Notes: generated by a model not told the origin, from the sequence alone. Shown: positions 6,927 through 14,213, counted from the first letter of the stretch. The stretch is DNA of 42,133 nt from Parcubacteria group bacterium M6-OD1-4 (GCA_003056205.1 LSNS01000003.1:1-42133), one strand, 5' to 3'. Made by a program: numbers and translations.

Positions 6927-7991
6927 TTACTTATTTATCAAAAAATTGGCAACATCTCCATCCTGAAAAACATAATCTTTGCCCTCTGTTCTGATTAATC
7001 CCAATTCTTTTGCTTTAATTTCTCCTCCGCAATCTACAAACTTTTCCCAGTTTATTACTTCTGCTCTAATAAAACCAGTAATAAAGTCAGTGTGGATACG
7101 ACCAGCAGCTTGAGGGGCTTTTGTACCTTTTTTAATAGTCCAAGCACGAGTTTCATCAGCTCCGCTCGTGAAGAAAGTTTCTAAACCCAATATTTCGTAA
7201 GCACTACGAATTAATTTATTTAAACCACTTTCTTCTAACCCTAGTTCTTTAAGGAACTCTTTTTGCTCATTTTCTGGTAAGTTGGAGATTTCTTCCTCTA
7301 ATTTAGCATTGATTCTAATAATTAAGTCTGTAGTTGTTGGCAAATGGTCGTTATTATCATCTTCACCAGTATTTAAGAGGTAAATAATAGGTTTAATTGT
7401 TAATAGATTGAGAGTTTTAACATAAATGTCTTCTTCATCATCAAAGTCTAATTCTCGAACGGCTTTGCCAGTGTTTAGATGTTGATAGATTTTGTCTAAT
7501 ATTACAGAATTATGTATTATTTCTTGATTACCACTCTTTGCTTCTCGTTTCATTTTGTCTAAACGTTTTTCTATAGAAGCTAAATCAGCTAATATTAGTT
7601 CAGTATTTATTGTTTCTCGATCTTCTTCGGGATTAACTTTGCCGGAAACATGAATAACATTTTCATCTTGAAAATCACGAATAACTTCGCAAATAGCATC
7701 ACATTCTCTAATATGAGCCAAAAATTTATTACCCAAACCCTCTCCTTGATGAGCTCCGGCTACTAAACCAGCAATATCGACAAATTCAATTGTGGTGGGA
7801 ATAATTTTAGCTGGTTTTGATACTTCAGCTAGCTTATCTAAGCGAAAATCTGGCACTTTAACTACTCCAACGTTAGGATCAATAGTACAAAAAGGATAAT
7901 TAGCAGTTTCGGCTTTATTTTTGGTTAAAACATTAAATAATGTTGATTTACCAACGTTTGGCAAACCGACAATCCCGATTGATAAGGGCAT
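6927..7991 (-). CDS. ychF: Redox-/ribosome-associated P-loop ATPase YchF (OLA1 family)
   Basis: At 354 aa the length is standard for the family. The G1 motif GLPNVGKST sits near the N-terminus, followed by 'ANYPFCTIDPNVGVV' and the G3 motif DIAGLVAGAHQGEGLGN. The G4-like 'NTGEDD' replaces NKxD, as is usual for YchF, which prefers ATP. The coiled-coil insert (about 125-210) and the C-terminal TGS domain, ending in 'KDYVFQDGDVANFLINK', are complete. YchF binds ribosomes and is implicated in the oxidative stress response. The gene is read leftwards from a long untranslated region that contains a candidate RNA and a terminator (8067-8118). Either the gene has a leader with attenuation, or it has a separate promoter close to its start, where a TATAAA lies 7 nt upstream of the ATG without a clear -35. 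Confidence 0.97.
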   Translation of the reverse strand: MPLSIGIVGLPNVGKSTLFNVLTKNKAETANYPFCTIDPNVGVVKVPDFRLDKLAEVSKPAKIIPTTIEFVDIAGLVAGAHQGEGLGNKFLAHIRECDAICEVIRDFQDENVIHVSGKVNPEEDRETINTELILADLASIEKRLDKMKREAKSGNQEIIHNSVILDKIYQHLNTGKAVRELDFDDEEDIYVKTLNLLTIKPIIYLLNTGEDDNNDHLPTTTDLIIRINAKLEEEISNLPENEQKEFLKELGLEESGLNKLIRSAYEILGLETFFTSGADETRAWTIKKGTKAPQAAGRIHTDFITGFIRAEVINWEKFVDCGGEIKAKELGLIRTEGKDYVFQDGDVANFLINK

Positions 7992-9969: not shown

Positions 9970-10041
9970 GGTCCCTTCGTCTAGTGGTTAGGACACCAGG
10001 TTTTCATCCTGGCAACAGGGGTTCGATTCCCCTAGGGACTA
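9970..10041 (+). tRNA. tRNA-Glu (TTC)
   Basis: The acceptor is GGTCCCT/AGGGACT (first pair G-U). The D-arm is GTC...GAC-like, the anticodon stem CCAGG/CCTGG has loop TTTTCAT (anticodon TTC), and the T-arm is AGGGG-TTCGATT-CCCCT. The discriminator is A73 and CCA is not encoded. Position 13 is U, the residue that TruD converts to pseudouridine in E. coli tRNA-Glu. A truD-like gene lies 0.7 kb downstream. Confidence 0.95.
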
Positions 10042-10049
10042 CAAATCAT

Positions 10050-10365: not shown

Positions 10366-10392
10366 TTGACAGAAAATGATATTTATTATAAT
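10366..10392 (+). promoter_or_regulatory. Promoter of the zinc-ribbon gene
   Basis: A perfect TTGACA and a perfect TATAAT have a short 15-bp spacer. An alternative TATACT lies 5 bp further down with a long spacer. The gene has an exceptional ribosome binding site, AAGGAGGAGG, 6 nt before the ATG. Confidence 0.6.
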
Positions 10393-10440
10393 ATACTATT
10401 AGCAGAAAATAAGTTGTTCTTTTAAAAAGGAGGAGGCGTC

Positions 10441-10698
10441 ATGACTAAAAAAAATAAAGAATTTGTTATTAAGGTACTTTGTGCTAATTGTGGCACTATA
10501 TTGTATAAGTACAAAAAAGAAGGAGCTGGTTTTTTGGTTAAATGTTATGTTGACGGCATTTTAAAAGATTATACGCGAAAAGATCTTAAATGTCCTAAAT
10601 GTAATCAGCAATTTGCCAGATTGGCCAGATATCATAATCGTCCTGCACATAAAATTATTCATGGTAAAGTTATCGTGAAGGGGCATTGTGGTCAGTAA
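10441..10698 (+). CDS. Small zinc-ribbon protein, unknown function
   Basis: This basic protein of 85 aa has two CxxC knuckles (CANC near residue 14, CPKC near residue 51) spaced as in a zinc ribbon. A conserved-looking C-terminal segment 'RPAHKIIHGKVIVKGHC' follows. It is one of only two genes in the window with a strong Shine-Dalgarno sequence. It also has a near-perfect promoter, so it may be highly expressed. A hairpin with a U-rich tail follows its stop (10702-10742), so it may be a separate transcription unit from truD. Small zinc ribbons often bind RNA or ribosomes; for this protein that is a guess. Confidence 0.7.
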   Translation: MTKKNKEFVIKVLCANCGTILYKYKKEGAGFLVKCYVDGILKDYTRKDLKCPKCNQQFARLARYHNRPAHKIIHGKVIVKGHCGQ

Positions 10699-10701
10699 AT
10701 G

Positions 10702-10742
10702 CGAGGGGAGAGAAAAAGTTTCTTACCCTCGTATTATTTTTA
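10702..10742 (+). terminator. Terminator or attenuator between the zinc-ribbon gene and truD
   Basis: The outer stem CGAGGG/CCCTCG, inner stem AGAAA/TTTCT and following TATTATTTTT look like an intrinsic terminator. No other promoter for the truD block is obvious, so partial read-through is likely. Confidence 0.5.
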
Positions 10743-10757
10743 TTAAAACTAAAAATT

Positions 10758-11819
10758 ATGGAAATTTCTTATAAAATTAAACAAAAAAAAGAAGATTTTA
10801 TTGTTAATGAGATTTCATTGCAACCAAATTTTTACCCTCGTTGTAAGTCAAATTTTTCTTATCTTTGGATAGAAAAGAGAGGGATGACTACTTTCGATGC
10901 TTTAAATAAAATACTGGAAGCTTTTAATTTAAATATAGGTGATGCTGTGGCTCAAGGGCTAAAAGATGAAGATGGTGTTACCAGTCAATTAATATCTGTT
11001 CCAAAAATAATTTTTAAAAGAGATTTAAAGTTATTTAATAAAAACTTTACTTTAAATAATTATAAATTGCAGATAAAAAATATTGTTGGTTATGGGTTAA
11101 ATTCTTTAGTTCCTAGATCGTTGCATGGTAATAGTTTCCAATTAATTATTAGAGATTTAAATAAAAAGCACGCTGAAGCATTTTATAATTATTGTATTAA
11201 CCAGCGGTTTATTAGTTTTTTTAATTATTATGATAATCAAAGATTCGGTATTGTCGGTGGTCCATATAATACTCATTTAATCGGCAGAGCAATTATTAAT
11301 AATCAATGGGTTACCGCTTATAAAGAATTTAGTAAATCTCGGAATAGTGGACTAAGTAATATCAAAAAACCAATAAAAATGGATTATTCTCATTGTAAAA
11401 AATTTTTTACACAAATAAATTTTGCCAAGGTTCGTTTTTTTATTTCTTCTTATAATAGTTATTTATGGAATAAAGAAGCTAGCGCTTACATAAGCAAGAC
11501 AGTGAATACCTCACAATATTCATTTTCAAAGATTGGCCTCTTACCTTTAGTTAAAGGTAATATTTTTAAAGTTTATAATATTTTGTCAATTAAGGGTTAT
11601 GAAATTAATAAAAATACATACCGAATTTCCCCTAAAGAATTTATGCGTAATTTATTTATTACCACTACTATTTTCCCGACAAGCATTAAGCGAGATGACT
11701 TAAATAATAACAAATACAAAGTAGAAATTTCTTTTTTTCTTCCGACAGGATGTTACGCAACAATGTTAATAAAACAAATTTTTATAAAATTAAATAACAG
11801 TTTATGCCTGGAAAAATAA
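10758..11819 (+). CDS. truD: TruD-family tRNA pseudouridine synthase
   Basis: The ORF track begins at 10686, inside the upstream gene and a hairpin. The ATG at 10758 (MEISYKIKQKKEDFIVNEI) fits the TruD N-terminus and gives 353 aa, the family length. The catalytic motif is 'QGLKDEDGVTSQ', whose Asp matches D80 of E. coli. 'LHGNSFQLIIRDL' contains the conserved GN-x-F segment. 'NYYDNQRFG' is a diverged NYFGxQRFG. 'SSYNSYLWN' and 'LPTGCYATMLIK' mark the C-terminal part. TruD makes pseudouridine at U13 of tRNA-Glu in E. coli, and the upstream tRNA-Glu has U13. The next gene overlaps the 3' end by 16 bp. About half of its Arg codons are AGA, unlike most of the window. TruD-like enzymes also serve C-nucleoside antibiotic pathways, so a non-tRNA role is possible. 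Confidence 0.88.
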   Translation: MEISYKIKQKKEDFIVNEISLQPNFYPRCKSNFSYLWIEKRGMTTFDALNKILEAFNLNIGDAVAQGLKDEDGVTSQLISVPKIIFKRDLKLFNKNFTLNNYKLQIKNIVGYGLNSLVPRSLHGNSFQLIIRDLNKKHAEAFYNYCINQRFISFFNYYDNQRFGIVGGPYNTHLIGRAIINNQWVTAYKEFSKSRNSGLSNIKKPIKMDYSHCKKFFTQINFAKVRFFISSYNSYLWNKEASAYISKTVNTSQYSFSKIGLLPLVKGNIFKVYNILSIKGYEINKNTYRISPKEFMRNLFITTTIFPTSIKRDDLNNNKYKVEISFFLPTGCYATMLIKQIFIKLNNSLCLEK

Positions 11820-12427
11820 TCGCACTTGTTGGGCCCTCTGGAGTGGGAAAAAATTATGCTAAGCAAGCCATTAAAAAACAATTTCCTCTATTGCTCGAGT
11901 TAACAGTTTATACTACAAGACCCAAACGACCCTCAGATGGCTTAGATAGGAAAACCGATATTGCTACTGAGGATTTTTTAAAAATGAAAAAAGATAGTCA
12001 ACTCATTGCTACTCACCAGCCATTTGGAACTCAAGGTGATTGGTATGGGTTTTCTCAAAAACAAATTGATGAAATGCTGATTAATAATAAAATAATTTTA
12101 ACAGAAATTCATCCAGACAACATCCCTTTATTTAAAAAATTATATAGTGACCAAGTTTTTATTATTGCTTTAATAGCGAAAAATGAATATTTAAAATATA
12201 ATTTAAAATTAAGAAATTCTGAAAAAGAGACCGATAAGACATTAAGATTAAATAGAGCAGCCCAGGAAATAGAAAGTATTAGGAAAATGCAAAAAGAAAA
12301 ATTAATTAATAGTCTATTGGAGATTAATTGGAATAATAGAGATAAACTTTCAGAGCTAGTAGTTAATGAAGTGATGCAAGAGATTAGACCGTTGATTGAA
12401 CAAGAAAATAAATTAAAATTTAAATAG
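11804..12427 (+). CDS. Guanylate-kinase-like nucleoside monophosphate kinase with altered base site
   Basis: This 207-aa P-loop kinase has the guanylate kinase fold markers: GPSGVGKN at the N-terminus, 'YTTRPKRPSDGLD' matching the GMP-loop TTRxPRxGExxG, and 'DWYGFS' matching YYGTS. Several residues differ from true Gmk. Walker A ends in Asn instead of Ser/Thr. The Tyr after the GMP loop is lost ('RKTDIA' for 'xxYxFV'). The Glu that reads guanine (HAEVFG in E. coli) is replaced in 'THQPFG'. The enzyme may phosphorylate another NMP or be a specialised paralogue. It overlaps truD by 16 bp and is 7 bp from the next gene, so the three are translated together. Eight of nine Arg codons are AGA/AGG, the strongest codon anomaly in the window. 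Confidence 0.75.
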   Translation: MPGKIIALVGPSGVGKNYAKQAIKKQFPLLLELTVYTTRPKRPSDGLDRKTDIATEDFLKMKKDSQLIATHQPFGTQGDWYGFSQKQIDEMLINNKIILTEIHPDNIPLFKKLYSDQVFIIALIAKNEYLKYNLKLRNSEKETDKTLRLNRAAQEIESIRKMQKEKLINSLLEINWNNRDKLSELVVNEVMQEIRPLIEQENKLKFK

Positions 12428-12434
12428 ATACTTT

Positions 12435-13568
12435 ATGTCTAAATTATCGTGTAAAATATTGGGAACAACCTTTTCAAATCCTATTTGGCTAGGATCGGGA
12501 ACTATTTCAGATAATAAAGAAAGGGTTGATAAACTTTTAAAATCAAAAGCGGGAGCTATAATACCACGGACTACTAGATTTAAATATGCACCTGGCAGAA
12601 AAGCTCACCCTTCATATCATCTGGATATTAATATAGATGAAAAATGGATCAGAAATTGTGAATGGACGGGAAATTTAATAAATTATTGGCAATCATATCT
12701 AAAAGAACTCTCTAAATCAAAAAAGATTATTATGTCGGTTTCTGGTCGTGATATAAGCAATTGTTTGAAAGTTTGCAAAATAATTGATAAATATAATTTT
12801 CCATTTATAGAAATAAATATAAGTTGTGCTCACAGTAATGAAATTAATGGGTTTATCACAAGAAATTCTAAACACATTTCTACTTTAGTTAAAATTCTTA
12901 AGAAAAATATTAAAACTCCAATTGCCTTAAAGCTTGGTCATTCAGACTTTATTGTCAGTTTGGCAAAAATTGCCGAAGAATCTGGGATAGATGCAATTGT
13001 TGCTATTAATACTTATGGCCCCGTGATTGATTTTGATATAAGTACTGGTTGTCCTAAATTAACTTTAGGCATCGGCAACGGGAAAGGTGGATTATCTGGT
13101 AAAACTATTTTTCATATTGCATTAACTGATGTAGTTGATCTAAGCCAAAATTTAAATATACCGATTATTGCCTGCGGTGGCATCACAAAACCTGAAGATG
13201 CTATTAAGATGATTATGGCTGGGGCAAGCGCAGTACAAATATATTCAGCCGTTCATTTAGCTGGTCGTCAAGGAATTAAATTTCTAAATAAGTTTATTTT
13301 AGATTTTAACACCTGGTTAGATAAATACAAATATGAAGATATTAATGATTTAAAAGGTATGCTATTGCCATTATTATCCCGCCCTCATCACATGGGTCCC
13401 ATTATACCAAAATATAATCAACGTCTTTGTATTCAATGCCAAGCCTGTGTTAATATCTGTTTAGAAGGTGCTATTAGTCTTTTAGATAATAAAATAGTCA
13501 TTAACAAAAATAAATGTATTAGTTGTGGAGCTTGTGTATCGGTTTGCCCCACGAAAGCTTTAAAATAA
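12435..13568 (+). CDS. Dihydroorotate/dihydropyrimidine dehydrogenase-like flavoprotein with C-terminal 2[4Fe-4S] domain
   Basis: The 377-aa protein has an FMN TIM barrel of the class 1 DHOD/PreA type (about 1-310). The start 'NPIWLGSGTISDN', the active-site loop 'INISCAHSNEINGF' (Cys retained, usual PN replaced by AH) and the FMN-phosphate segment 'IIACGGITKPEDAIKMIMAGASAVQIYSA' are seen. The last 60 residues carry two CxxCxxCxxxC clusters ('CIQCQACVNIC', 'CISCGACVSVC'). This layout matches the PreA subunit/dihydropyrimidine dehydrogenase C-terminus rather than PyrD. It would reduce or oxidise a pyrimidine ring using ferredoxin-type electrons. No PreT partner or pyr genes are nearby. It shares the AGR-rich codon use of the two upstream genes. 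Confidence 0.8.
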   Translation: MSKLSCKILGTTFSNPIWLGSGTISDNKERVDKLLKSKAGAIIPRTTRFKYAPGRKAHPSYHLDINIDEKWIRNCEWTGNLINYWQSYLKELSKSKKIIMSVSGRDISNCLKVCKIIDKYNFPFIEINISCAHSNEINGFITRNSKHISTLVKILKKNIKTPIALKLGHSDFIVSLAKIAEESGIDAIVAINTYGPVIDFDISTGCPKLTLGIGNGKGGLSGKTIFHIALTDVVDLSQNLNIPIIACGGITKPEDAIKMIMAGASAVQIYSAVHLAGRQGIKFLNKFILDFNTWLDKYKYEDINDLKGMLLPLLSRPHHMGPIIPKYNQRLCIQCQACVNICLEGAISLLDNKIVINKNKCISCGACVSVCPTKALK

Positions 13569-13572
13569 ATAT

Positions 13573-14121
13573 ATGGAAATTGAAATTAGGGCCCAAATTA
13601 ATAATTCTCAGGATATTGAAAAAAAGATTATCGAGTTAGGTGCGAAGTTATTAGGAAAAAAGAAACAGATTGATGAATATTTTGGAGAAATTAATTTATA
13701 TAAAAAATTAGGGTATTCTTTTTTAATGCGAGTTCGGACTGAAGGAGACCAGAAATTTATAACCTATAAAGGCGCTCAATTAAAAAAAGATGGAGTTTGG
13801 GAGGAGTATGAGTTGGCGATAGATAATTCCGAAAAAGCAATTAAAATGTTTCAGGCGATGGGTCTTGAGAGAGTTATCGTCGTTCATAAATATCGGAAAG
13901 AGTATCGTTTGAATGATTTAACGATTTGTCTAGATCATTTAGAAAGTCTCGGTGAGTTTATTGAAATAGAATCTTTACAAAAGAAAGATATCAACAAGAA
14001 TGTTCTAAAAGATTTTTTGCAAAAATTAAATATCCCAGAAGACCAAATTATTCACCAAGGCTACGTGACCATGTTGTTGTCTAAGAACAAGACAGTCTTT
14101 TCAAAATATATCATTAATTAA
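13573..14121 (+). CDS. CYTH-domain protein (class IV adenylate cyclase/triphosphatase family)
   Basis: The 182-aa protein begins with 'MEIEIRAQI', an ExExR variant of the ExExK CYTH signature. It continues with 'RVRTEGDQKFITYKG', 'EYRLNDLTICLDHLESLGEFIEIES' and a C-terminal helix. CYTH enzymes bind triphosphates in a beta-barrel tunnel with divalent metals. Family members are adenylate cyclases, thiamine triphosphatases or inorganic triphosphatases, and the 'FIEIES' and 'LDHLESLG' wording is closest to the CyaB-like group. It starts 4 bp after the dehydrogenase gene and is probably co-transcribed. Its Arg codons are mostly CGN, like the rest of the window, so it may not belong to the transferred block. 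The actual reaction cannot be assigned. Confidence 0.75.
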   Translation: MEIEIRAQINNSQDIEKKIIELGAKLLGKKKQIDEYFGEINLYKKLGYSFLMRVRTEGDQKFITYKGAQLKKDGVWEEYELAIDNSEKAIKMFQAMGLERVIVVHKYRKEYRLNDLTICLDHLESLGEFIEIESLQKKDINKNVLKDFLQKLNIPEDQIIHQGYVTMLLSKNKTVFSKYIIN

Positions 14122-14213
14122 CTTTAATGGTTTAAATTATTTGAAAAATATAGTAGTTAGATTAAAGAGAGAAAATTAATTGTTGTCTTTGTTTATTTAG
14201 CTATGAATATTAG

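Follow-up and report, generated by a model that had tools for sequence, protein, structure and literature searches.

Three adjoining genes in a 42,133-nucleotide stretch of DNA from Parcubacteria group bacterium M6-OD1-4 (the window, analysed over its whole length) encode a TruD-family pseudouridine synthase, a guanylate-kinase (GMK)-fold enzyme and a PreA/DHOD-like flavoprotein, and a sequence-only reading had proposed that they may form a C-nucleoside or pseudouridine pathway. The locus raises the question of whether the genes form such a pathway or are housekeeping genes adjacent by chance, namely a TruD for tRNA-U13, the cell's GMP kinase and PyrD.

The locus in the window

The coordinates, order and coupling of the three genes are as first described: the TruD and kinase genes overlap by 16 bp, and the kinase and flavoprotein genes are separated by 7 bp. 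The three families form a coupled operon, as the trio had been taken to do, but the unit is larger, extending to five genes with a CYTH gene downstream and a Zn-ribbon gene upstream, all on one strand. The features are as follows.

9970..10042, + strand: tRNA-Glu (ttc) gene (ARAGORN), adjoining the cassette
10366..10394, + strand: promoter-like TTGACA-17-TAATAT, 5′ of the Zn-ribbon gene, a consensus match only
10441..10698, + strand: zinc-ribbon protein gene, 85 aa, with CxxC...KCY...CPxC and HNRPAHKII
10701..10733, + strand: terminator-like hairpin CGAGGG..CCCTCG, then T-rich, between the Zn-ribbon and TruD genes
10758..11819, + strand: TruD-like pseudouridine synthase, 353 aa, catalytic GLKDED motif kept, assigned to the C-nucleoside-cluster clade
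11804..12427, + strand: GMK-fold kinase, 207 aa, with TExHPxN, retaining the P-loop and phosphate arginines but not the guanine contacts
12435..13568, + strand: DHOD/DPD-like FMN protein, 377 aa, C-terminal 2x[4Fe-4S], PreA-like architecture
13573..14121, + strand: CYTH / triphosphate tunnel metalloenzyme, 182 aa, 4 bp 3′ of the flavoprotein gene

Promoter-like consensus matches numbered 31, against 26.7 expected by chance; the hairpin has a folding energy of -17.4 kcal/mol (z -3.75). Protein searches against Pfam and NCBIfam assigned the TruD to PF01142 (E 1.8e-35), the kinase to Guanylate_kin PF00625 (E 7.9e-10) and the flavoprotein to DHO_dh PF01180 (E 8.5e-37) with two Fer4 matches. An equivalog cut-off was reached by none of the enzymes except the CYTH, with the cyaB model. 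In the window genome the kinase and flavoprotein are the sole PF00625 and PF01180 members over the cut-off, which favours a housekeeping role for the pair.

Distribution and mobility of the cassette

The sequence-only reading had called for a search for the same three-gene order elsewhere, and the gene set is conserved in other CPR loci. GTDB genomes were pattern-scanned with the TruD alignment, which yielded ten loci, and their neighbours were then checked by tblastn; the rest of the cassette adjoins TruD at all scanned loci with enough contig, locus L112 excepted. The full set of five families is present at a minimum of 7 other CPR loci and in one Diapherotrites bin, with copies 60-90% identical. 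The loci come from bins carrying the labels Uhrbacteria, Kerfeldbacteria, Paceibacter and other Patescibacteria, in addition to the Diapherotrites bin, whose copy, on a 4.1-kb contig that lacks host flanks, may have been misbinned. In genomes G113, G194 and G082, which belong to other families, the nearest homologues of the window TruD, flavoprotein and Zn-ribbon sit together; the best kinase matches fall at these positions too in G113 and G194, and in G082 on a fragment at a contig end. Because the same families adjoin one another in further CPR genomes, the arrangement is more than chance, and five-gene linkage conserved in unrelated genomes argues against housekeeping genes brought together by accident. 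We found no published description of the cassette in the openly accessible literature.

The standard gene order is TruD>CYTH> <Zn <DHOD-Fd <kinase, in which two groups of genes face each other within a cassette of ~4 kb. Relative to the other cassettes, the window TruD, kinase and flavoprotein are 27-44% identical and the Zn-ribbon 60-65%, and the window CYTH is of a different subtype; by these comparisons the window copy is a deep, divergent variant. TruD was present in 1 of 39 genomes of the window's family, and any TruD in 30 of 381 genomes of the class sample.

Locus L112 holds TruD-CYTH alone and locus L102 kinase-flavoprotein-Zn alone; the cassette therefore comprises two separable sub-modules. 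The kinase and flavoprotein are fused in one 573-aa frame at L037/L110 (the same contig); in the predicted structure of the fusion the kinase half alone was confident, and the rest gave DHOD/DPD folds. The incomplete halves adjoin NUDIX genes (L102 8420-8929; L112 4288-5115, with a Ham1-like gene too in L112). In three cassette copies the TruD gene is frameshifted, each at a different place (L037 10598-10695, L038 2602-2638 and L112 3436-3484), through decay, assembly error or recoding.

Across eight cassette genomes, mean identity of the flavoprotein was 82% against 43% for rpsB, with no rank correlation between them (rho 0.02), and housekeeping PyrD pairs in the class averaged 49%. Flanking genes differ at most loci. 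These comparisons indicate that the cassette moves horizontally. Inverted repeats holding strong hairpins bound it in G113 (78 nt at 99%), in the Diapherotrites-bin contig (141 nt at 100%) and, less strictly, in G194 (46-74 nt at 84-89%); in those genomes the repeats occur almost nowhere but at the ends of the cassette, and G082 has a single additional copy. A tRNA gene lies within ~1.3 kb of six copies, the window included, and three of these have the same tRNA-Thr/tRNA-Tyr pair. The cassette includes neither a transposase nor an integrase; movement would therefore have to be driven in trans.

Further features were observed around individual copies. Attachment-site-like direct repeats of ~237 nt with a tRNA-Tyr fragment flank the G113 element outside the inverted repeats (L036 8742-8978 and 13390-13628), and a fragment that resembles a serine recombinase by eye overlaps tRNA genes near the G194 cassette (L037 8297-9289). 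At L109, a 59-nt inverted repeat, 93% complementary, stands on either side of the cassette (7283-7341 and 14120-14178); its arms lie at the starts of two unrelated genes, one miaA-like and one alanine-racemase-like.

In a phage collection no match was obtained for the kinase of the window or for a TruD from the cassettes, and the dehydrogenase matched distant DHODs only; pattern scans of IMG/VR based on the Zn, DHOD and TruD alignments were empty. A phage or viral origin was rejected on these results. The patchy, mobile and compact cassette with inverted repeats at its ends would suit nucleotide-based defence or competition, in which a toxic UTP-like C-nucleotide acts against viruses or neighbouring cells, and pseudouridimycin, made by a pathway with a TruD-like step, is an RNA polymerase inhibitor (PMC8724604). 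However, PADLOC anti-phage models gave only chance-level partial matches, on which a known defence system was discarded; no defence-gene neighbours were seen, and the cassette has no immunity or sensor gene. We regard this explanation as very unlikely.

Properties of the encoded proteins

The window TruD scored 123 bits against a PF01142 cut-off of 27, with catalytic and core motifs kept. The tree that the sequence-only reading had proposed as a check was built by maximum likelihood (41 rows, LG+C20) with TruDs from a malayamycin-like cluster carried by Mesorhizobium plasmids and an uncharacterised cyanobacterial (Gloeothece) cluster as the biosynthetic comparators, in place of PumJ and the malayamycin TruD itself. 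The cassette, Gloeothece and Mesorhizobium TruDs formed one clade (99/94), outside which fell E. coli-type TruDs (100/100) and CPR housekeeping TruDs (91/96); within it, the cassette TruDs were monophyletic with the window TruD at 86/59 only. Full-length alignment and a common GLKDED are confined to the TruDs of that clade. Against 72,556 plasmid records a cassette TruD had three matches only, two from Mesorhizobium and one from Gloeothece, and the same collection does hold housekeeping TruDs. By its membership in a biosynthetic rather than a housekeeping clade, the cassette TruD is thus assigned to the C-nucleoside-cluster type.

The Mesorhizobium TruD is neighboured by genes for an aminotransferase, radical SAM protein, 2OG oxygenase, methyltransferase, EPSP-synthase-like protein, carbamoyltransferase, small kinase and Tyr-phosphatase, a set matching the gene content of the malayamycin cluster (PMC8724604). 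This complete-looking malayamycin-type cluster, annotated gene by gene only, lies on root-nodule Mesorhizobium plasmids (CP050294.1, L178 5688-16426; NZ_CP050298.1, L179) and constitutes a C-nucleoside cluster outside actinobacteria. The Gloeothece TruD, on a plasmid of strain PCC 7822 (NC_014534.1, L177 3994-13784), has as neighbours genes for a glycosyltransferase, histidine phosphatase, sulfotransferase and ABC transporter.

With guanylate kinase (PF00625) and PhnN the cassette kinase has in common the GMK fold, the P-loop and the phosphate-binding arginines (TTRxxR). It differs in its base site: in alignment with yeast GMK, E69 is replaced by L/A, S80 by L/F and D100 by H, Y50 has gone, and TExHPxN does not vary among the aligned cassette kinases. 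Y50 and E69 are likewise lost in PhnN. The kinase nevertheless falls far under both equivalog cut-offs, with 66 bits against 160 for guanylate kinase, and identity as PhnN (ribose-1,5-bisphosphokinase) was rejected at a score of only 24-39 bits; a relationship to the AAA_33 kinase of the Mesorhizobium cluster was rejected for want of BLAST similarity. A separate, better-scoring PF00625 protein is present in G082, G194, G751 and G754, and among sampled relatives in the window's family no PF00625 protein over the cut-off was found. Because the contacts are lost, a GMK is encoded elsewhere in other cassette genomes and the family lacks one, the kinase is likely neither a GMP kinase nor a replacement of one, and the altered base site noticed from the sequence is borne out.

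The best solved-structure matches of the flavoprotein were PyrD-B and DPD, with Dus a weak match only. Like PreA of PreTA and domains IV-V of DPD, it has an FMN barrel with two C-terminal 4Fe-4S clusters, and alignment shows that the DPD pyrimidine contacts are kept (N609, N668, S670 and N736; T737 as S/T), together with catalytic C671 and H673. Its SC-x-H loop (SCAH/SCSH) and N-x-E are common to DPD, whereas PyrD has SCPN and N-x-I. It lacks the SCPN loop and PyrD-equivalog score of class 1 DHODs (171 bits against 269 for PRK07259), falls below the PreA equivalog (142 bits against 335) and is ~27-31% identical to plasmid-borne PreA-type proteins; unlike PreTA, the cassette has no gene for the NAD(P)H-oxidising, FAD-containing PreT partner, and the flavin-site Lys of DHOD and DPD is Arg. 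The proposed PreA/DHOD-like protein with two clusters thus holds up, with a DPD-like rather than an orotate-type site. Since some of the DPD asparagines are also common to DHODs, its substrate can only be inferred. DPD, whose contact residues are described, bonds ring N1 and tolerates C5 substituents (PMC10970046). A C5-linked nucleotide has a free N1 and a C5 substituent, and N1 of UMP is blocked; the flavoprotein would chiefly for this reason be placed after TruD.

Whether the two enzymes are simply the organism's only GMP kinase and PyrD, a case that the sequence-only reading had set against its own proposal, has a divided answer: they are the only members of their Pfam families here, but the residues of the kinase are not those of a GMP kinase, the family lacks GMK and the dehydrogenase site is DPD-like. 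Taken with the conserved cassette, the separate GMKs of other cassette genomes and the TruD tree, this led us to reject the housekeeping trio, which we consider extremely improbable.

The window CYTH exceeded its family cut-off and aligned to the archaeal triphosphate tunnel metalloenzyme SaTTM (Saci_0718; E 3e-12), its closest characterised relative, from which it differs in having ExExR where the motif is ExExK and in sitting in a cassette; other cassettes have another CYTH subtype. Although the cyaB NCBIfam fits (86 bits, cut-off 58), adenylate cyclase was rejected, SaTTM being a triphosphatase that makes no cyclic nucleotide (PMC8233210). The window CYTH is accordingly predicted to be triphosphatase-like. 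The Zn-ribbon is probably accessory, because members of its family are found by themselves in further CPR genomes; lone HNRPAHKII zinc-ribbon proteins were seen at L143, L144, L145, L146 and L147, near CTP synthase in L143-L145.

The main rival to a C-nucleotide function is a mobile RNA-modification module, in which TruD would make pseudouridine in tRNA or rRNA, the flavoprotein dihydrouridine-like bases, the Zn-ribbon would bind RNA and the CYTH strip 5′-triphosphates, with no free small molecule. RNA is the substrate of TruD and Dus-type enzymes, the Zn-ribbon and CYTH folds are known in RNA-binding and RNA-triphosphatase proteins, several cassette copies adjoin tRNA genes, and the cassette TruD may act on RNA only. 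Yet a small NMP-kinase-fold enzyme, once fused to the dehydrogenase, suggests a nucleotide as the substrate; the flavoprotein is of PyrD/DPD rather than Dus type, the TruD belongs to the clade of biosynthetic clusters, and 38 of 39 relatives have no TruD. We consider this module unlikely.

Pyrimidine salvage or repair for an auxotroph accounts for other observations. The flavoprotein would oxidise dihydropyrimidine nucleotides to UMP, the kinase would make the diphosphate and the CYTH would clear damaged triphosphates; CPR genomes are auxotrophic, the window's family has no GMK, and relatives with half a cassette adjoin NUDIX or Ham1 house-cleaning genes. This scheme leaves TruD without a job, and patchy distribution and high mobility are ill suited to an essential route, which makes it decidedly improbable.

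A proposed C-nucleotide pathway

We somewhat favour reading the five genes as a divergent version of a horizontally mobile CPR cassette whose function would be to make or handle a pseudouridine-type C-nucleotide inside the cell. The original C-nucleoside hunch is supported in part, and in a larger form, as a mobile cassette built around a TruD of the C-nucleoside-cluster clade; it is qualified by the unit being five genes and by the kinase and flavoprotein being the sole members of their Pfam families in this genome. We infer the following substrates, order of steps, product and role. The TruD-like enzyme would convert uridine to its C-nucleoside isomer, acting either on RNA or on a nucleotide, a step proposed for malayamycin and pseudouridimycin. 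The GMK-fold kinase, with a base site that has lost its fit to guanine, would then phosphorylate the C-nucleotide, and the flavoprotein would reduce (or re-oxidise) the 5,6-bond of the base, with electrons passing via the two 4Fe-4S clusters. The triphosphate form would be cleaved or bound by the CYTH, and the Zn-ribbon protein would be accessory, perhaps RNA-binding. We suggest only tentatively, as a rather unlikely extension, that the product is an undescribed reduced (5,6-dihydro) pseudouridine nucleotide acting in the cell, for instance as a nucleotide-based weapon, a defence or an RNA building block. Points against a C-nucleotide function are the absence of an exporter, a self-resistance gene and 5′-tailoring enzymes, the separable halves, the three frameshifted TruDs, the 86/59 monophyly, the DPD asparagines partly common to DHODs and the different CYTH subtype of the window.

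Like the malayamycin and pseudouridimycin clusters, the cassette is a self-contained set with a dedicated small kinase, and its TruD is of the same clade as that of the malayamycin-like cluster. It differs in its GMK-fold kinase, in adding a DPD-like flavoprotein, a CYTH and a Zn-ribbon, and in being mobile and found in reduced CPR genomes. Reading of the loci showed that tailoring genes of the pseudouridimycin/malayamycin type (aminotransferase, radical SAM, oxygenases, ligases) and an exporter are absent from the cassette and its flanks; the cassette likewise has no 2OG oxygenase, enoylpyruvyl or carbamoyl transferase, amide ligase, 5′-tailoring enzyme or self-resistance gene.

C-nucleoside pathways have been described from Streptomyces-type antibiotic producers. 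If the proposed function is correct, the cassette would represent a new, minimal route to C-nucleotides, in which an antibiotic-clade TruD is joined by a DPD-like flavoprotein and a re-tuned kinase of the GMK fold. Its four enzymes are small and soluble, which opens the scheme to direct tests in vitro. It would also be a rare biosynthetic trait jumping between reduced CPR genomes, which are thought to have almost none.
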